Source of the DNA: a virus
Strand: one strand, 5' to 3'
Virus record (IMG/VR): IMGVR_UViG_3300025326_000238
Location: 1 to 20,769 of that record
Length of the DNA stretch: 20,769 bases
Below the pieces are notes generated by a model. It was not told the origin of the DNA, did not search any database, and was given only the letters and a program-made list of their open reading frames with translations. A program made the position numbers and the translations under genes. Positions 4,281 through 15,510 of this stretch are shown here, piece after piece (the stretch's first letter is position 1; every line of letters begins with the position of its first letter).

Positions 4281-4955
4281 CGGAAGTAACATTTGCATCT
4301 GGGCTTCGGCTATCCGCTTCTGAGCGACAGCGAAATGGCCGGGGTCGATCTCTATGCCGATAAAGTTTCGTCCAGTCTTAGCACAAGCCACACCAGTCGT
4401 ACCGCTGCCCATGAAGATATCAAGAACCGTATCGCCGGGCCGAGTGCTAATTTCAACTAACCATTGAACAAGCTCAAGCGGCTTCTCGGCTGGGTGTCCA
4501 TTCGGTTTTGTTGCCGTCCACATACAGCGCCGAATATCGGGGATGCCCCTGTTGGCGATGGCGAAGTCGTCTCCGATCCATAATGCCACGAATTCATAGG
4601 AAGGGCGAAGCCCAGCATGTCCACCGGGACCAATCCAGATCTTATCCCAAACAAGAAGCGACTCAATTGGCCAGGAAATGTCGTCGGCTGCTTTCTGGAA
4701 GGTCACAAATGATCGCCAATTCAGGAACGACCATAGGCATCCTTTCCCAAGCATAAGACTACGGCAGCGCCTAATCCATTCGGCATACCAGAAAGACGAG
4801 TTGATCCGGTCGCCCCAGGGGTTGAGTTTGCCTTGGCCGTCAGACTTCGTATTGATACTATAAGGCGGGTCGGTCACTACTGCATCTGCGCATCCAGCAG
4901 GCAACGTCTTCATCACCTCTAGACAGTCACCCAATCGTAGGTCTACCGTCGTCAT
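4275..4955 (-). CDS. orphan DNA methyltransferase, beta class (N6-adenine or N4-cytosine)
   Basis: The enzyme should transfer a methyl group from S-adenosylmethionine to an exocyclic amine of A or C in DNA. The catalytic motif DPPY is at residues 29-32. A variable region likely to carry target recognition follows, then HPAEKP at 154-159 and the SAM-binding FMGSGTTG at 181-188. Catalytic motif before SAM motif is the beta-class order (N6_N4_Mtase family). At 226 residues it is compact but complete. No restriction enzyme is adjacent, so it is probably an orphan phage methylase for protection from host restriction or for marking DNA next to packaging. A GGGGAAGG ribosome binding site precedes the ATG, which overlaps the previous stop (ATGA). 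Confidence 0.92.
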   Translation of the reverse strand: MTTVDLRLGDCLEVMKTLPAGCADAVVTDPPYSINTKSDGQGKLNPWGDRINSSFWYAEWIRRCRSLMLGKGCLWSFLNWRSFVTFQKAADDISWPIESLLVWDKIWIGPGGHAGLRPSYEFVALWIGDDFAIANRGIPDIRRCMWTATKPNGHPAEKPLELVQWLVEISTRPGDTVLDIFMGSGTTGVACAKTGRNFIGIEIDPGHFAVAQKRIAEAQMQMLLPI

Positions 4956-5641
4956 TGATACCTTCCCCTCGCCATCTCAATCTCCCTCCCCGCTGTCCCA
5001 TCTGCATTGAATCTCGCCTCGGCTTGATCGGGTCTCTTGAGGTAGATCCCTAGTGGTATTCTCAGATGGTGGAAGGTCTCATTGTGTGCTGCTAGTCTGA
5101 GCCAGAATTCGTAGTCTCCTGCACTCTGAAATGAGGCATCAAAGGGGCCGTACTTATCATGCAGTGACTTCCTCCACATCGGCTGAGGTCCTAGAAAGCA
5201 GTGCTTCATGAGTTCATCGAATCCTCCCTCGGCCCATTTGAAGTATCCCGTCCTCCAAGCAAGATCAAAGCCTCCTGTGAGGTCCTCTACGATATCCACG
5301 TCGGCATAGGCTACTGCATGGTTGGGATTCCGGTCCAATGCGGAGGCTAAGAACTCAATCGCATAACCGGCTAGTCGATCATCACTGTTCGCATTCGTGA
5401 TGTATTCTCCTCTTGCTGCTTCAACGCCAAGGTTCCAAGCCCCGTATATAATGGGGATGTCTGGGGTGTCGATCAATACATCCTCGCCATTCAACATCCC
5501 TTCGGCTATCCTCAGTTCTTTGGATTTCTCTTGTGCCACTACAACGATCTGGGGGCGGAGCGTCTGTTGCTGGAGATTTAGGATACGCCCCTCGATATAG
5601 GGTTCGGCATAGTAGGCTGAGACGATGGAAGAGACTTTCAT
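4952..5641 (-). CDS. GT2 family glycosyltransferase
   Basis: A 229-residue GT-A-fold enzyme expected to move a sugar from a nucleotide-sugar donor. It begins MKVSSIVSAYYAEPYIEGRI, the usual GT2 first strand and helix. The metal/donor-binding acidic cluster is NANSDDR (SDD at 86-88), and the catalytic-base region is GDYEFWLRLA at 175-184. A GPQPMWR segment at 151-157 matches the acceptor-side loop of many GT2 enzymes. The start was set at the second Met because its ATG overlaps the stop of the 41-residue gene upstream (ATGA); another ATG lies five codons earlier. No membrane segment is seen, so it is probably soluble. Substrate is unknown. Confidence 0.88.
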   Translation of the reverse strand: MKVSSIVSAYYAEPYIEGRILNLQQQTLRPQIVVVAQEKSKELRIAEGMLNGEDVLIDTPDIPIIYGAWNLGVEAARGEYITNANSDDRLAGYAIEFLASALDRNPNHAVAYADVDIVEDLTGGFDLAWRTGYFKWAEGGFDELMKHCFLGPQPMWRKSLHDKYGPFDASFQSAGDYEFWLRLAAHNETFHHLRIPLGIYLKRPDQAEARFNADGTAGREIEMARGRYQ

Positions 5642-5763
5642 AACCAGATATACCATCCTTCTGGTATCAATCCCTCCGCTAAAAGCCGGAATGCGAATTC
5701 TCTAGGGATAAACCATCCTCCCTTGAAGTCAGAGGAACAGACATTAACATAGTCAAGCATCAT
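5638..5763 (-). CDS. 41-residue coupled small protein, unknown
   Basis: This short gene sits between the FkbM and GT2 genes. Its ATGATG start overlaps the FkbM stop and has GGAGG just before it. Its TGA overlaps the GT2 start as ATGA. The protein begins MMLDYVNVCSSDFKGGWF and is rich in aromatic residues (several Trp, Phe, Tyr), ending in PEGWYIWL. I recognise no family. The double coupling and good ribosome binding site argue that it is translated. A role as a small partner of the flanking glycan enzymes is possible but unproven. Confidence 0.6.
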   Translation of the reverse strand: MMLDYVNVCSSDFKGGWFIPREFAFRLLAEGLIPEGWYIWL

Positions 5764-6443
5764 CGCCTCCCAAACAGCGTGCTGTGATCCGGCCAGATCG
5801 TCCCCAGCTTGTATCGCTCTACCACCATCTTCTCTCGGTTCACCCAATCCAGTTTGTAGCCGTCATCCTTCAACAACCTCGCTAGGTTATCCTGCGCATT
5901 TGGATTAGTCTGGTTCCCTGAATGCGCCTCGATAATCCATGAGTCCACATTGCAGGTCGCTAACCCATCGGGAACCACGGTGTACTCCGCCCCTTCGATG
6001 TCCAGCTTCACCACTTTAGGATTCAGGTCTGCCAATCGAATGGAATCAACCTCTATCCCCTCTCCGAATGAAATGGCCCCATTGGATTGTCCGTCATAGT
6101 TGATCTTCCCGGTCTGATTCCAGAATGCTGCACACCTAAGACTCATCCCACGATGGAGGCAGTTCAGGAACATGTTGACTTCTGCTATATCCAGATTAGC
6201 GATATGAGGATCCACCATGATGAGCTGCTTGGGTGACTTCTGAGCCAAGACTAAAGAGTAATGCCCATGATGACATCCCCCATCTATGACTACTCTCCCC
6301 TTGAGGGGGATATTCTCCGCCACCCATTGGTATTCCAAAAGAATGTAGGATTTAGGAGGCTCGTACCAATCTCGCGCGAGTGGTGTCGCGATGAAGAAAT
6401 CTAGATTCCTAAATCCATGCTGAATGATGTAAGGTTCAAACAT
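5760..6443 (-). CDS. FkbM-family SAM-dependent methyltransferase
   Basis: FkbM-type enzymes O-methylate sugars and small molecules. From the Met at 6443 the protein has 227 residues. The SAM-binding motif I is VVIDGGCHHG (about 51-60), an acidic strand-2 end is IMVDPH (75-80), and the family signature is VDSIRLADL followed by VVKLDIEGAE (132-153). The start at 6443 was chosen because GGAGG lies six bases upstream. Extending to 6509 would overlap the preceding gene and use a start with no ribosome binding site. Between GT2 genes and a nucleotidyltransferase, it most likely caps or decorates a glycan; this is inferred from context. Confidence 0.88.
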   Translation of the reverse strand: MFEPYIIQHGFRNLDFFIATPLARDWYEPPKSYILLEYQWVAENIPLKGRVVIDGGCHHGHYSLVLAQKSPKQLIMVDPHIANLDIAEVNMFLNCLHRGMSLRCAAFWNQTGKINYDGQSNGAISFGEGIEVDSIRLADLNPKVVKLDIEGAEYTVVPDGLATCNVDSWIIEAHSGNQTNPNAQDNLARLLKDDGYKLDWVNREKMVVERYKLGTIWPDHSTLFGRR

Positions 6444-6471
6444 CTCCATCCTCCAATGCCCCGTCCTCAAT

Positions 6472-7101
6472 TCAAAATGACGCTTTGAAGTGTTTGGATA
6501 CCAGCTCACGATAACTCTCGAAGTCCGCTATGTCGTAGTAGTAGTCCATCTGGAAGGTCTCATGCGGGGTCAGTTCTAAGGCTAGATTGAACGCCTCAGT
6601 ATGCTCCGTAAGATAGGTCTCTCGAAGTATCTGCATCGCTGAGTAGGGCCATCCCAATAGCCCCCAGGCTTTCTTGGGAAGTCCTTCATTCTCGGGATTC
6701 TTGTCGTCGATCATCCCGTTCCAGACACCAAACTTATGCCCCTCAGTCGTATCGAACAGCCCTATCATGAACTTGCTCTCGTCTATCTCCTTGGGGAAAT
6801 CTGAAAATAGAGTATCTGGCATCGCAAAGAGGTAGTAGTCCGCTTTCAATGTGACTGACTTGATCGCCGCTAGAAGATTGGTCCCTTGCTGGACGACTAG
6901 ATAGACGTTCCCGAATGGCGCTAGCTCCCAGGAATGCGCCGCGATCTTCTGGGGATTCGTTATCACCACAACGTAGTCACATCTTGCCATCAGAATACGG
7001 ACGGTCCTTCGGAGGAAGGATTCTCCCTCGTAGGGTAACAATTCTTTGAGGGTCCCCCCGAAGCGTTCTGACTTACCCGCGGCTGGGACAATACCAATCA
7101 T
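6472..7101 (-). CDS. NTP_transferase-type sugar nucleotidyltransferase
   Basis: Such enzymes join a sugar phosphate to an NTP to make an activated sugar. The 209-residue protein starts with the nucleotide-binding loop MIGIVPAAGKSERFGG (compare the G-x-G-x-R loops of RmlA/GlmU relatives), followed by LKELLPYEGESFL. A metal-binding-like AMPDTLF lies at 93-99, and a near C-terminal YYYDIADFESYREL (187-200) matches the D-I-x-T/D-x-x-D/E-Y ending of this superfamily. It is short and lacks an acyltransferase or hexapeptide domain. The ATG overlaps the stop of the 93-residue gene (ATGA) and has no clear ribosome binding site. Donor sugar unknown; a regulatory or inactive relative cannot be excluded. 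Confidence 0.82.
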   Translation of the reverse strand: MIGIVPAAGKSERFGGTLKELLPYEGESFLRRTVRILMARCDYVVVITNPQKIAAHSWELAPFGNVYLVVQQGTNLLAAIKSVTLKADYYLFAMPDTLFSDFPKEIDESKFMIGLFDTTEGHKFGVWNGMIDDKNPENEGLPKKAWGLLGWPYSAMQILRETYLTEHTEAFNLALELTPHETFQMDYYYDIADFESYRELVSKHFKASF

Positions 7102-7379
7102 GGCCGGGAAAAATCATAATGAACGTGACTTCCTAAACAATCCTCGGGCCATTTCAAAAAGCCATCTGGAACACGCCCCAGGAAATCTTCCTCCGATTCC
7201 AGATAACCGCGCCTTGGATCGGCCCATCCGCCATACGTCCCATTGTAAGTTCCAAGAAAGTTATGCAAGGCACAACGGCATTTTCTGTCCACTTGTTCAA
7301 CCCAGTCTTCATGTGAGGAATATCCACCTTTGAGAACTATGTCATAGGGTTTCCAGGTAGGATCACTATAGTTGTTCAA
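7098..7379 (-). CDS. 93-residue protein of unknown function, probable TTG start
   Basis: The frame between the GT2 and nucleotidyltransferase genes most simply starts at a TTG at 7379, which overlaps the GT2 stop as TTGA, and ends with a TGA overlapping the next ATG. The protein begins (M)NNYSDPTWKPYDIVLKGG and has many Trp, Tyr and Gly residues plus a Cys pair (KCRC). A longer in-frame start exists at 7499 but would run deep inside the GT2 gene. I recognise no family. Mature aromatic-rich composition and coupling suggest a real accessory protein of the glycan cassette. Confidence 0.6.
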   Translation of the reverse strand: MNNYSDPTWKPYDIVLKGGYSSHEDWVEQVDRKCRCALHNFLGTYNGTYGGWADPRRGYLESEEDFLGRVPDGFLKWPEDCLGSHVHYDFSRP

Positions 7380-8017
7380 TCGAAGACTGTCCAATCTTCC
7401 TGCTCCCCGATCTTGAGATTGTGCTTCGCTTCCAGATAGGCTTTGTTCTTCAGCCGGATTCCCTCGTAGCCTGGGATCTCCCATCTCGTCTTCCCCCAAT
7501 GGTGCTTTACCGGAATGGATGACTTCTCAATCCTGAAGCCTAGCTTTGCGGCCCTGAAACAGTAGTCCGCATCATCAAAGCCGCAGATCTCAAAGTTCTC
7601 ATCGAACAGCCCGACCTCATTACGGACCTCACGGGGGATGGCGAATAGCCACAGTCCTAACCACCTCATATCTTTATGGATGATGAGCTGGTTCCCCCAC
7701 AAAGTATCAGGAGTCATCCAGGCTAAGGATTCACGGATTGAACCTGTAGCTGTGATGTCATTGTTCAGGATGATGTACCAATCAGATTCCAGTTGACTAT
7801 CCGCTGAAGCAATCCCGAAGTTGATCGCCTTGGAGTAACAGACTCTTTCCAGAGATTGGATGATGTGTGCTCCCTTCTCTTGGGGATACGGAGGATCGGA
7901 GGCGTTGTCTATTACGAAAAGATCTATCCCCGGATCAAAGGAGAGGATGGATCTTATGGCAGGACGGGTGAACTCCTCCCATTGGTTGATGCCGACGAGG
8001 ATTACGACGGTGTTCAT
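7376..8017 (-). CDS. GT2 family glycosyltransferase (rhamnosyl-type layout)
   Basis: A 213-residue GT-A-fold glycosyltransferase. The first strand MNTVVILVGINQWEEF leads to the donor-binding VIDNAS (35-40). The DxD-equivalent is NND (85-87) inside WYIILNNDI, and the catalytic-base region is GFDDADYCFRAAKLG (146-160). A HH pair at 172-173 follows, as in WbbL-like GT2 enzymes. It lacks membrane helices. The ATG overlaps the stop of the upstream helical gene (ATGA). With the second GT2, the nucleotidyltransferase and FkbM gene it forms a small glycan-building set; donor and acceptor are unknown. Confidence 0.9.
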   Translation of the reverse strand: MNTVVILVGINQWEEFTRPAIRSILSFDPGIDLFVIDNASDPPYPQEKGAHIIQSLERVCYSKAINFGIASADSQLESDWYIILNNDITATGSIRESLAWMTPDTLWGNQLIIHKDMRWLGLWLFAIPREVRNEVGLFDENFEICGFDDADYCFRAAKLGFRIEKSSIPVKHHWGKTRWEIPGYEGIRLKNKAYLEAKHNLKIGEQEDWTVFD

Positions 8018-8325
8018 TCGTTGGCGTTTTCCATCGCTTCATTCGCCAACTCCACTATTGCTTCACCAAACATGACGCTGGCATTTCCGATGCCATCAAG
8101 GTCTTTCGCAAGAGATCCAATGATGTCCAACAGTTCAAGCACAAATGAACGCCATTCTGGATGAATAGGTGCCATGATCTGTCGGCACAAAGGAAGAACG
8201 ATATTGACCCGCCGCGTGTGAGTCAAGATGTGATCATGAATCCGTGTCATCTCATCCATTGCTGGTTTGAGTCGGTCAGAGAATTCTACAAACGCCTCCG
8301 CTTTCACTTGCCCCAGTTCGTCCAT
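8014..8325 (-). CDS. 103-residue helical protein of unknown function
   Basis: This protein begins MDELGQVKAEAFVEFSDRLK and is predicted by composition to be almost wholly alpha-helical, with an amphipathic C-terminal half (LLDIIGSLAKDLDGIGNASV). GAGAGG lies five bases before the ATG. The gene overlaps the end of the large glycosyltransferase gene by 22 bases and the start of the GT2 gene by four. No family is recognised. Its position suggests an accessory or scaffolding role for the neighbouring enzymes, without direct evidence. Confidence 0.7.
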   Translation of the reverse strand: MDELGQVKAEAFVEFSDRLKPAMDEMTRIHDHILTHTRRVNIVLPLCRQIMAPIHPEWRSFVLELLDIIGSLAKDLDGIGNASVMFGEAIVELANEAMENANE

Positions 8326-9728
8326 GAGTCCCTCTCGAATACATCAAGTGCAGAATTCGGCGTCAGATTGATTATTCGCCGTCCGTCTGCCTCGAATGCC
8401 CCTCTCGCCATCTGATACGCCTCTGCGCTTTTCTCCAGATCCGGCGCGTGCCACTTCGTCCCATCGGAGAAGTAGGACTCATCCGCATGATTCTTGTCAG
8501 GCCCTTGCGCAACAAGCTCCTGATTTGGATTTCCCTCAAACGAATACCGATGGTCAACCCCTACCAAGAGAATCATAGAGAAGCCCATCCAGTAAGCAAT
8601 TTGAAGACAGACGAACGTAACCGTGTGCCCCTCGTAAAGTCCTAATGTGGGATCGGGGAAGAACTTCCTATCCGCTAAGGACTGGATGGGGACTACCGCG
8701 GGTTGTTCCTTGATCGGATTCCCTCTTAAGTAATTCGCCGCCAGGAAGAACCTCCGCACCCTCCCCTTGTACTTCTGGATCATCCCAGCCCCGAATTGAT
8801 TTAGGACAAGGGGATTCACCGAACAGTAATAGGTTGGATAAAAGCCTTCCAAGTGCCTGATGGCATAGATGCGGTTAGTCCCGAATGAGGAATGCTTTTG
8901 AAGGAACTCAACCGGGATCTCCTTGAGAGAAGGTCCGTTGCCAATGACGATGCAAGTCTCTCCCTTATGGGAATCCTTCAGTTCGGCCCACTTTGAATTG
9001 TCCTCTTGGAACCACGGCTCCGGATTCATACGTGCTTTCTCGTCTGGGATCAATAGATTCTGTCTCATCAGCCAGGGCTTCTCGTCAATCCAGAGAATGT
9101 CCTGATGAGGGGGAACGATCCTCATATCACAATAGAGTTTGATCCCCGCAGCTCTACAGATTTCAGAGAAGTACCAATCCTCTCCCAAGAAGGTATCCGA
9201 AGAATCCTCGTACTTCATTCGGAACCAGGGATAGTGAAAGCCCTTCTCCTCCAGTTCCATGAACACCTTACGCCGAATGCAGATTGCTGCGGACCCAATG
9301 ATGTCCACTTCCAAGAGACCGGGCTTCCATTCGACGGGTTGTTTGAGATCCTCCCCATCTAAGACATACGCCTGGGGATCGTAGGGTTCTCCCCTCCTGA
9401 ATGCCAAAGCACCCACCACTGGCATATCATCTTCAATCAACCGTAAGACAACATCATGAGGCTGTAAGTGGTCTGTATCTAACATGATGAGGGCAGATTC
9501 AGGATCAGTAGTGATGTCCATGAACTTCTTGGCTATTCGGTTTCTGGAAACATCAACCCGCGCGTATGGGTGTCTGATTCGCCTGACGCCATGCAGTGCG
9601 CAGAATGCTGCCACATCCTCCCGCGCATCAGTAGCCTCAGCGGAAATAGACCGTTCATTGAGAACGGCATACCAATGCTGAGGCTTGTTCTCTAACTTCC
9701 GATGTGATCTGCGGGTTCGTTTACTCAC
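8304..9728 (-). CDS. two-domain protein: GT-A glycosyltransferase fused to DUF115/MptE-like (sialyltransferase-like) domain
   Basis: A 474-residue protein with two halves. Residues about 18-215 look like a GT-A glycosyltransferase: SALIMLDTDHLQPHD with a DTD metal motif (84-86), a PVVGALAFRRGEP strand, DIIGSAAICIRRKVF and GEDWYFSEICRAAG. Residues about 255-460 carry CIVIGNGPSLKEIP (259-272), SFGTNRIYAI, and ILLVGVDHRY (386-395). That set is shared by DUF115/MAF-type proteins and resembles the GNGPSL loop of GT42 sialyltransferases. DUF115 proteins are linked to glycan (often nonulosonate) transfer in other bacteria. The start is GTG, overlapping a tiny upstream ORF. It heads the glycan cassette, and no membrane segment or signal peptide is seen. 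Confidence 0.82.
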   Translation of the reverse strand: MSKRTRRSHRKLENKPQHWYAVLNERSISAEATDAREDVAAFCALHGVRRIRHPYARVDVSRNRIAKKFMDITTDPESALIMLDTDHLQPHDVVLRLIEDDMPVVGALAFRRGEPYDPQAYVLDGEDLKQPVEWKPGLLEVDIIGSAAICIRRKVFMELEEKGFHYPWFRMKYEDSSDTFLGEDWYFSEICRAAGIKLYCDMRIVPPHQDILWIDEKPWLMRQNLLIPDEKARMNPEPWFQEDNSKWAELKDSHKGETCIVIGNGPSLKEIPVEFLQKHSSFGTNRIYAIRHLEGFYPTYYCSVNPLVLNQFGAGMIQKYKGRVRRFFLAANYLRGNPIKEQPAVVPIQSLADRKFFPDPTLGLYEGHTVTFVCLQIAYWMGFSMILLVGVDHRYSFEGNPNQELVAQGPDKNHADESYFSDGTKWHAPDLEKSAEAYQMARGAFEADGRRIINLTPNSALDVFERDSWTNWGK

Positions 9729-13918: not shown

Positions 13919-14097
13919 CCCTCTGGCACATCATCCGCTTCACCACCATACGCCACCTGTGGCTTGTCATTCTCACATGCAATCCAGCCAATAAGCAGAG
14001 CTTGTGGACTGAGAGATGGGTGGCAGTCAAACAACGGAATGCAGTAGCATGGGATCCCAATGAGTTGCATCGCTTCTTGAAGGGAGAATTGCAATGA
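13915..14097 (+). CDS. 60-residue basic protein, unknown
   Basis: Coupled at both ends by ATGA overlaps, with GAGG nine bases upstream. The protein begins MTLWHIIRFTTIRHLWLVIL, a hydrophobic and basic N-terminus that could be membrane-associated, followed by a polar WTERWVAVKQRNAVAWDPNE part. No family recognised. Confidence 0.6.
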   Translation: MTLWHIIRFTTIRHLWLVILTCNPANKQSLWTERWVAVKQRNAVAWDPNELHRFLKGELQ

Positions 14098-14708
14098 GGG
14101 AGTACGAGAAGATACAGTCTATCTACAAACGGGACGACAAGACTCACCGTTTCATAGATGAGCAATGGTCTACGCCTGAGATCGCCTATCTTGCTGAATG
14201 CGAATGGGAGTGGACCGAAAAAGTGGACGGGACGAATATCCGTGTTGGTTGGAATGGGGCTATCGTTGAGTTGGGAGGGAGAACGGCGGCTGCACAGATA
14301 CAAGCCAGCCTGATAGCACGATTGCAAGAGTTGTTTCCCTCAACTATCTTCGCCGCCTATCCAGCTGGCATCGTTCTATATGGCGAGGGGTACGGCGCAA
14401 AAGTCCAGAAAGGCGGAGAGAACTACAAGGCCAATGGCGTTGACTTTGTTCTGTTTGATGTGCTGGTCGGAGACTGGTGGCTTTTGCATGAGGATGTGGA
14501 GGATGTAGCCCGTCAACTGGGGATTGCTACGGTGCCCGTCATCGGAAGGGGACCTATCTCCCAAGCCGTTGATATTGTGAGGGGCGGATTTCCATCGAAG
14601 TGGGGAGCATTCCCAGCAGAGGGATTGGTATTACGCACCCCCGTTGGACTTTGCGGTAGGAACGGCCATCGTGTCCTTGCGAAACTAAAGACAAAAGACT
14701 GGGCTTGA
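14094..14708 (+). CDS. RNA ligase, Rnl2/RNA_ligase family
   Basis: The enzyme should seal nicks or join RNA ends through a covalent lysyl-AMP intermediate. The adenylation motif I is EKVDGTN, with the nucleophile K43. Motif III is LYGEGYGAKVQKGG (E98), motif IIIa is VLFDVLVGD, motif IV is EGLVLRT (176-182) and motif V is LAKLKTKDW (196-203). At 204 residues it is a minimal nucleotidyltransferase domain without an extra C-terminal domain. GGGAG precedes the ATG, which overlaps the previous stop. Phage RNA ligases usually repair tRNAs cut by host defence, but no tRNA or polynucleotide kinase gene is visible here. A structured RNA lies directly downstream. Confidence 0.9.
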   Translation: MREYEKIQSIYKRDDKTHRFIDEQWSTPEIAYLAECEWEWTEKVDGTNIRVGWNGAIVELGGRTAAAQIQASLIARLQELFPSTIFAAYPAGIVLYGEGYGAKVQKGGENYKANGVDFVLFDVLVGDWWLLHEDVEDVARQLGIATVPVIGRGPISQAVDIVRGGFPSKWGAFPAEGLVLRTPVGLCGRNGHRVLAKLKTKDWA

Positions 14709-14730
14709 CACACAAGCAGGATGAGGCCAC

Positions 14731-14759
14731 TTGACAGGCTGGCAGGATAAGATGATAAT
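14731..14759 (+). promoter_or_regulatory. strong sigma-70 promoter ahead of the replication gene
   Basis: Perfect TTGACA (14731-14736), a 17-base spacer and GATAAT (14754-14759) give a near-consensus promoter, with the expected start around 14766. Just upstream, GCTTGACACACAAGC (14703-14717) is an imperfectly spaced inverted repeat (GCTTG / CAAGC) that could be an operator. The promoter lies after the RNA ligase stop and implies separate control of the replication block. Confidence 0.8.
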
Positions 14760-14765
14760 GAGTGC

Positions 14766-14889
14766 ACAATATAAGGCCCCGCCGTGGGCCAAAGGCCAGG
14801 GATGAACCGCCTCCTGGGCGGTTCGCAGTTTTCCCTAAACCCTGGCCGGGAATACGGCGAACTGCGGGCCGACCAAGAGGCGGTTTTTC
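14766..14889 (+). ncRNA. structured RNA leader with competing helices and a possible pseudoknot
   Basis: About 120 bases between the promoter and the GTG of the replication gene are packed with perfect complements. Nested helices: GGCCC (14775-14779) with GGGCC (14866-14870); CGCCGT (14780-14785) with ACGGCG (14854-14859); GGCCAGGG (14794-14801) with CCCTGGCC (14840-14847); and the hairpin AACCGCC-TCCTG-GGCGGTT (14805-14823). CGCAGTT (14824-14830) can pair with AACTGCG (14860-14866) as a pseudoknot. Alternatives include AACCGCCTC (14805-14813) with GAGGCGGTT (14877-14885), which would hide the AAGAGG ribosome binding site, and TTCCC (14831-14835) with GGGAA (14848-14852). This looks like a regulatory RNA or switch; no known class was recognised. 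Confidence 0.6.
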
Positions 14890-15468
14890 GTGCCTAGCAA
14901 ATACTGGATCAAGCTCTACCACGAAATCATTGACGATCCGAAGATGATGCGTATGCCGGATGAGATGTTTGCCAAGACAATCAAGCTCTTCCTCCTAGCT
15001 GGAGACCACGACCAAGACGGCGAGCTACCTTCGCCAGAGGATATTGCGTGGCGCTTGCGTTACGATCCCAGTGACGTTGATGTAACGCTTCGTTACTTAG
15101 AGCGTAACGGCATCATTTCACAGAACGGATCTGGGGCATGGTGCATAAGCAAGTGGGCAGATAGGCAAGGCCCCATATCTGGCGCTGAGAGGGTCCGCAG
15201 ACACCGTATATCCCGTAGAAACGAACCTGTAACGAATCGTTACACAGAATCAGATCAAGAATCAGATACAGAAGAGATGAGATCAACATCCACAAGCGTT
15301 ACAGACCTGTTCCACTTCGGAGTTCCGCTAGACGCTGCACGACAGTACGTTGAGAGAGTGGGAGAAGAGAGAGCGAGAGAACTTAATACTCTTTTGTTCA
15401 AGGGAAAGATGGACAAGACCATCCGATCACCCAAAGCATACGCACTCAAAGTAATCTCAGAGGAGTAG
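14890..15468 (+). CDS. probable replication initiator/replisome organiser with winged helix
   Basis: A 192-residue protein read from a GTG, with AAGAGG nine bases upstream. The N-terminal domain (about residues 1-95) begins (M)PSKYWIKLYHEIIDDPKMM and continues FLLAGDHDQDGELPSPEDIA, VDVTLRYLERNGIIS and WCISKWADRQ. This is the winged-helix layout of phage replisome organisers and DnaD/DnaT-like loaders. A charged linker (about 95-130) leads to a small helical C-terminus (GVPLDAARQYVERVGEERAR). Seven hexamer repeats lie inside its coding region, as with lambda-like O genes that carry the origin. No helicase or primase gene is in the window, so it presumably recruits the host helicase. Family assignment is by pattern. 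Confidence 0.65.
   Translation: MPSKYWIKLYHEIIDDPKMMRMPDEMFAKTIKLFLLAGDHDQDGELPSPEDIAWRLRYDPSDVDVTLRYLERNGIISQNGSGAWCISKWADRQGPISGAERVRRHRISRRNEPVTNRYTESDQESDTEEMRSTSTSVTDLFHFGVPLDAARQYVERVGEERARELNTLLFKGKMDKTIRSPKAYALKVISEE
15058..15302. repeat. iteron-like array of CGTTAC/GTAACG hexamers (candidate replication origin)
   Basis: Seven copies: CGTTAC at 15058, 15091, 15238 and 15297, and GTAACG at 15082, 15104 and 15229. Two pairs form dyads with the same 3-bp spacing: GTAACG-CTT-CGTTAC (15082-15096) and GTAACG-AAT-CGTTAC (15229-15243). The latter sits in the 17-bp perfect palindrome TGTAACGAATCGTTACA (15228-15244). The copies fall in more than one codon phase, so codon preference does not explain them. 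I noticed only one other copy in the window, at 19527. Placement inside a replication initiator gene suggests an origin. Confidence 0.65.
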
Positions 15469-15510
15469 GTGGAGATACCGCGCCTAAAGACAACCCTAGA
15501 CAGGAGAAGG

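Follow-up and report, generated by a model that had tools for sequence, protein, structure and literature searches.

A putative two-state RNA leader before a phage replication initiator, and the recurrence of its crossing-helix plan in uncultured phages

Introduction

In the attenuators of the plasmids pT181 and pIP501, the leader of the replication gene adopts alternative anti-terminator and terminator folds in a manner that depends on a counter-transcript. The P4 CI RNA is itself derived from a leader and, through pairing on the same strand, governs early termination ahead of phage replication genes (PMC4825925); CI has been published to act in trans on seqA and seqC. In T4, hairpins that sequester the ribosome binding site (RBS) limit expression of the homing endonucleases I-TevI, segB and mobE (PMC2988022), and the gene 32 operator is a pseudoknot near the 5' end of the mRNA, the relatives of which diverge in sequence (PMC535899).

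Here we describe a leader in the window, which is the whole 20,769-nt stretch of viral DNA that was analysed (IMG/VR record IMGVR_UViG_3300025326_000238), together with leaders of the same plan in other phages. The literature yielded no description of this plan, in which a promoter is followed by arms a, c, a' and c'. Like the pT181 and pIP501 attenuators, the window has a replication-gene leader with alternative folds, but it has no opposing sigma70-like promoter within 14300-15500. The P4 CI RNA and the c4 antisense RNA of P1/P7 resemble the leaders studied here in combining leader pairing, premature termination (predicted for our leaders) and replication genes; however, the present leaders have interleaved cis arms (a/a' and c/c'), share no sequence with those RNAs, and match no Rfam family, c4 included. 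The nearest precedents are the T4 endonuclease RBS hairpins (PMC2988022) and the gene 32 pseudoknot (PMC535899). The former are likewise RNA structures, and they curb the expression of mobile nucleases of phages, but they are single and depend on promoter choice, whereas each leader here is served by a promoter of its own and has two helices that cross and compete. The gene 32 pseudoknot also lies close to the 5' end of the mRNA of a phage replication protein and is also divergent in sequence, but it is about 28 nt long and nucleates the binding of SSB, whereas our leaders extend over roughly 100-170 nt with helices of 8-29 bp.

Results

The leader region lies between an RNA-ligase gene (14094-14708) and a replication gene (14890-15468, plus strand). 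Its promoter, of the sigma70 type (TTGACA-17-GATAAT, plus strand, 14731-14759, matching the consensus at 11 of 12 positions), is present where the preliminary description had placed it, and neither strand has another sigma70-like site within 14300-15500. Antisense control was set aside on the absence of a minus-strand site in this interval, in a search that covered sigma70-like promoters. The replication gene starts with GTG and encodes a 192-aa initiator which, judged from its sequence, is a diverged Phage_rep_org_N/DnaD-like protein: the match to Phage_rep_org_N is weak (21.3 bits, cut-off 23.3), and replication-initiation and DnaD-like PHROGs provide support (best 2.9e-8). Two iteron-like palindromes (GTAACGNNTCGTTAC) within the gene, at 15082-15096 and 15229-15243, may be the origin to which the initiator binds; a pattern count that allows mismatches puts them no higher than chance. 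The ligase gene directly 5' of the leader (Pfam RNA_ligase, 3.8e-18) has relatives in phages at no more than 33-50% identity. Elsewhere in the window, a minus-strand gene block (4952-9728) separates packaging from early genes; its translations resemble sugar- or methyl-transferases, and most are kept in a cousin phage at about 54-64% identity.

The plus-strand leader contains a series of complementary arms. Arm a1 (14775-14785) pairs perfectly with the two parts of a1' (14854-14859 and 14866-14870), between which lies d' (14860-14866), and arm a2 (GGCCAGGG, 14794-14801) forms eight perfect base pairs with a2' (14840-14847). Arm c (AACCGCCTC, 14805-14813) has two potential partners: a local one at 14817-14823, in a hairpin that extends over 14804-14824, and c' (GAGGCGGTT, 14877-14885), with which it forms 9 bp. 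Arm d (CGCAGTT, 14824-14830) pairs with d', and TTCCC (14831-14835) with 14848-14852. The Shine-Dalgarno-like AAGAGG (14875-14880) is situated 9 nt 5' of the GTG and mostly within c', and a terminator-like TTTTT run (14884-14888) follows at the end of the hairpin formed with c'.

Every helix named in the preliminary description proved to be perfect (14775-79:14866-70, 14780-85:14854-59, 14794-801:14840-47, 14805-11:14817-23, 14824-30:14860-66, 14805-13:14877-85 and 14831-35:14848-52), and together they make up two folds with no pair in common. The early fold consists of the outer helices 14775-85:14854-70 and 14794-801:14840-47 and the hairpin 14805-11:14817-23, while the late fold is a long hairpin composed of 14805-13:14877-85, 14820-30:14860-70 and 14831-35:14848-52. 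A pseudoknot had also been proposed from the pairing 14824-30:14860-66. The pairing exists, but it is not independent evidence of a pseudoknot because it extends to 14820-30:14860-70 within the competing long hairpin.

The suggestion of a bistable leader, with an alternative helix over the Shine-Dalgarno sequence of the replication gene, was supported by both the helix and the folding tests. Perfect helices 7 bp or longer number four in the leader, compared with 0.76 in shuffles, and this count was reached by one of 500 shuffled sequences. By nearest-neighbour energies, which leave out pseudoknots, proteins and kinetics, the minimum free energy (MFE) of 14766-14895 is -70.1 kcal/mol, whereas dinucleotide shuffles give -49.9 +/- 3.8 (z -5.3, 0/200). 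In a 120-nt scan of the whole window the leader region had the best z-score on each strand. For 14766-14889 the MFE is -63.0 (z -4.4); when every MFE pair is excluded, the best remaining fold still reaches -57.9 (z -5.5), and each of the two values is better than all 500 shuffles. Calculated MFEs of the growing transcript favour the early fold up to about 14881 and switch once 14885 is reached, and in the calculated full-length ensemble the Shine-Dalgarno sequence is almost wholly paired. The 9-bp stem 14805-13:14877-85 running into TTTTT (14884-14888) constitutes a predicted intrinsic terminator, with a loop too long for a simple terminator scan; as this late stem also includes the Shine-Dalgarno sequence, it would be expected to terminate transcription, to mask the ribosome site or to do both.

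Searches for relatives of the RNA itself gave little. Exact-motif scans of viral contigs for homologous leaders returned unrelated loci only, and blastn against phages and plasmids returned chance matches only. Rfam at E<=10 returned nothing for the window leader but one chance-level fragment, with no match to the c4 family, and nothing at related leaders, the lone int-alpA match (L277:3240-3305) lying elsewhere. The preliminary description had recognised no known class, which these results uphold, also at the related loci. Its term riboswitch-like did not fare as well: there is neither an Rfam family nor a homologous leader, and across relatives both loops and helices change in sequence under one folding plan. 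Neither a curated Rfam match nor a conserved aptamer core among same-plan leaders indicates riboswitch membership. Ribozymes (HDV-like, twister and others) were considered on account of the motif GGCGAA and rejected, as the Rfam search at E<=10 turned up no relevant match. A search of the window for a possible target in trans found neither a complement nor a copy of the leader 11 nt or longer.

First searches with Rep protein seeds found nothing; relatives were found with a degenerate N-terminal pattern (WIKLYxEIxDDPK), followed by alignment. About 50 related Rep loci were identified in viral contigs, most of them inside operons that lack a leader, and at eight, including the window, a promoter and leader directly precede rep. 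The seven others have unrelated leader sequences and the same plan: a is close to where the RNA is expected to begin, c (often preceded by b) lies within the a:a' loop, and a', b' where present, and then c' follow just ahead of the ribosome site or a U-run, with helices a:a' and c:c' crossing. Helix b reaches significance in several leaders without being universal. L184 has a, b and c helices of at least 9, 10 and 14 bp, and L142:1838-1943, the clearest example, with a 14-bp a, a 13-bp c and TTTTCTT, heads an operon that has rep in third position. On the Rep tree the leader is scattered, requiring eight changes for eight members, and shuffled labels do as well, as expected of a mobile or often lost module. 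The cousin phage G003 (terminase 68%) has no such Rep within its 30.8 kb.

Crossing helices were enriched at promoters. Among the 1801 distinct promoters in the contigs collected to that stage, crossing pairs with scores of at least 46 occurred at 13, compared with one in shuffled sequences and two at random positions, and scores of at least 60 at six, compared with none in either control. Nested pairs scoring at least 46 were found at five promoters, in no shuffled sequence and at three random positions, and none reached 55. Tested singly, each of 13 elements had a crossing score that no more than two of 2000 shuffles attained (0-2); weakest of the 13 was the window, with a score of 47 (2/2000). 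A promoter-free scan for crossing helices was noisy (37 versus 25 in shuffles) and was taken as a lead only. In the Rep-derived set, 12 of 13 full leaders favoured c:c'.

A second, independent set of loci came from a scan of the collection in which only TATAAT and TGTCNAGG...CCTNGACA were fixed and c was left unconstrained, giving 42 loci. Nearly all loci with TGTC[GT]AGG have a strong c:c' crossing a:a' (0-1/200 shuffles), c' beginning 9-18 nt past a', while most TGTCAAGG loci have no strong c:c' crossing a:a'. The TGTCAAGGGG repeats recovered by the same scan mostly lack c:c' and were set aside. Promoter-proximal stems of the form TGTCAAGGGG...CCCCTTGACA, with no crossing second helix, occur in L280, L281, L282, L296, L299, L303-L306 and L316, several of the copies lying upstream of the same small gene.

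Partial transcripts of the pattern set favour a:a' in 20 of 20 cases and full leaders c:c' in 15 of 20, and a clear U-tract is present in 11 of the 20. The two free N positions of the pattern are complementary in all 34 distinct elements. Mismatches within helices comprise 20 G.U and 3 A.C, an excess that argues for selection on the transcribed strand, with a ratio that may be inflated by the entry of some elements through a GU-tolerant filter. The leaders of L278 and G024 differ little from the start of a to the ribosome site, and two of the differences amount to a compensatory C-G/G-C swap in c:c', although the initiator proteins behind them are unalike.

A covariance model, R1, trained on 24 of these leaders, finds members outside the training set (e.g., L264, L184 and two in L293). 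The window leader lacks the TGTC[GT]AGG/CCT[AC]GACA first stem and was not recovered by R1 at E values up to 10, and was therefore filed under the architecture rather than the sequence subgroup. It has crossing helices with a sigma70-type promoter directly 5' and a ribosome site directly 3', and it is calculated to fold in the same order, with a:a' favoured in the partial transcript and c:c' once the leader is complete. Its a helix has an interruption and begins 15 nt after the -10 element. The check by homologues put forward in the preliminary description was applied to same-plan leaders, the window RNA itself being without a sequence homologue, and in these the complements are maintained.

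Combining the Rep relatives and the pattern scans, we arrive at about 35 distinct promoter-leader units that share a single plan. Replication initiators follow the leader in the window, G024, G040, G042, G044, G046, G047, G050, L278 and L315; TnpB in L286, L292, L294 and L313; HNH, LAGLIDADG, GIY-YIG and endonuclease VII nucleases in L283, L288, L253, L285, L309 and L291; and DNA methylases in L151, L241 and L290. The remaining leaders precede unknown early genes. Both G040 and L293 have two different leaders apiece.

Discussion

We consider it probable, on the folding model, that the window leader is a co-transcriptional two-state switch before the replication initiator, and one case of a recurrent phage architecture in which a promoter is followed by a, (b), c, a', (b'), c' and a ribosome site. 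While RNA polymerase progresses, a:a' is calculated to be able to form first, enclosing c, and this fold would leave c' and the Shine-Dalgarno sequence exposed and the gene on. Once transcribed, c' would be available for pairing with c, and in the window the resulting helix, which holds the Shine-Dalgarno sequence and the end of which is the U-run, would stop transcription, translation or both. The amount of initiator would be set by the balance of the two folds, and sequence change would be tolerated while the arms still match. Our preferred guess is that this balance is tipped by RNA competition, or by the rate of folding or elongation itself, rather than by a small molecule. The topology is kept with little sequence conservation, which argues against a ligand aptamer and for pairing as the working part. 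About 30 other uncultured phages have the same plan ahead of genes for replication, nucleases and methylases, which points to an undescribed kind of RNA on/off switch.

The preliminary description had suggested a protein- or RNA-responsive switch, which is possible, and several alternative readings can be weighed against the data. Trans pairing has the appeal of requiring nothing beyond self-complementarity and of being similar to the P4 CI RNA. By analogy, a terminated leader, with c:c' formed, its 5' a arm free and a' in the loop, could pair with a or a' of new leaders, block a:a' and cause these to terminate too; the resulting self-reinforcing off state would also silence superinfecting or extra genome copies, as an immunity RNA comparable in its role to P4 CI RNA or P1 c4 RNA. 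Poor sequence conservation, the scattered distribution on the Rep tree, the position of a near the expected RNA start and the frequent U-tract at the end of c' would fit, as would the P4 precedent, in which a processed leader RNA brings about termination before replication genes (PMC4825925). However, multiple distinct leaders per genome and targets such as nucleases and methylases are atypical of immunity and suggest a broader regulatory use, no integrase was found in most of the leader-bearing contigs searched (contigs that may be incomplete), and the window has no complementary copy elsewhere. We regard this explanation as unlikely. Similarly doubtful is the wider proposal that these leaders are an undescribed, widespread family with interleaved helices (a b c a' b' c') whose terminated members re-impose termination on identical transcripts, a self-reinforcing and sequence-private silencing over replication, mobile-nuclease and methylase genes.

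A protein of the phage or of its host, such as an SSB or the gene product itself, might instead fix one fold by binding the a stem or a pseudoknot, as the structural operator near the 5' end of T4 gene 32 mRNA would suggest (PMC535899) and as the conservation of the TGTC[GT]AGG stem in one subgroup might indicate; yet about half of the Rep-derived set, the window included, lacks that stem, and the downstream products differ so widely that a common autoregulator is not expected, making this reading quite unlikely. The position of the leader and its alternative folds over the Shine-Dalgarno sequence would also suit a metabolite riboswitch of an unknown class, but the same-plan leaders have no conserved aptamer-like core and belong to no Rfam class. 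Relatives that keep the folding plan and exchange loop and helix sequences are ill-fitting for a ligand-binding aptamer, and we give this explanation hardly any credence. Dyads that merely resemble RNA helices could belong to a DNA-level element, such as an origin, recombination or repressor site, and the adjoining initiator and the iteron-like palindromes within rep agree with that; however, in the leaders examined the element follows the promoter and precedes the ribosome site, on the coding strand, the G.U versus A.C bias is strand-specific, and each dyad differs in sequence, so that this account too is very improbable.

If the two-state switch is right, one RNA device controls initiators, TnpB, homing-type endonucleases and methylases in phages of poorly known hosts, and its specificity is mainly self-complementarity. 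The plan would have been missed by sequence homology searches and Rfam, which are blind to it, and is found by topology. It provides a directly testable model of how interleaved helices could set expression without a ligand, within 100-170 nt, with one promoter and one reporter.

Some further observations concern the history of these elements. Several c' arms, those of L154, L278, L253, L151 and L241, start with GATGG, a hint that these leaders, dissimilar in other respects, may share an ancestor. G003 carries a crossing leader of its own (L123:4815-4560, minus strand), with an 11-bp a and a long GU-containing second helix, followed by another strong hairpin and a small unknown gene. The two leaders on the L293 contig (L293:8004-8137 and L293:13598-13725) share the plan, differ in their c arms and precede genes whose products begin alike (MGR..GKLLVI-like), as would be expected had the leader been duplicated along with the mobile gene.
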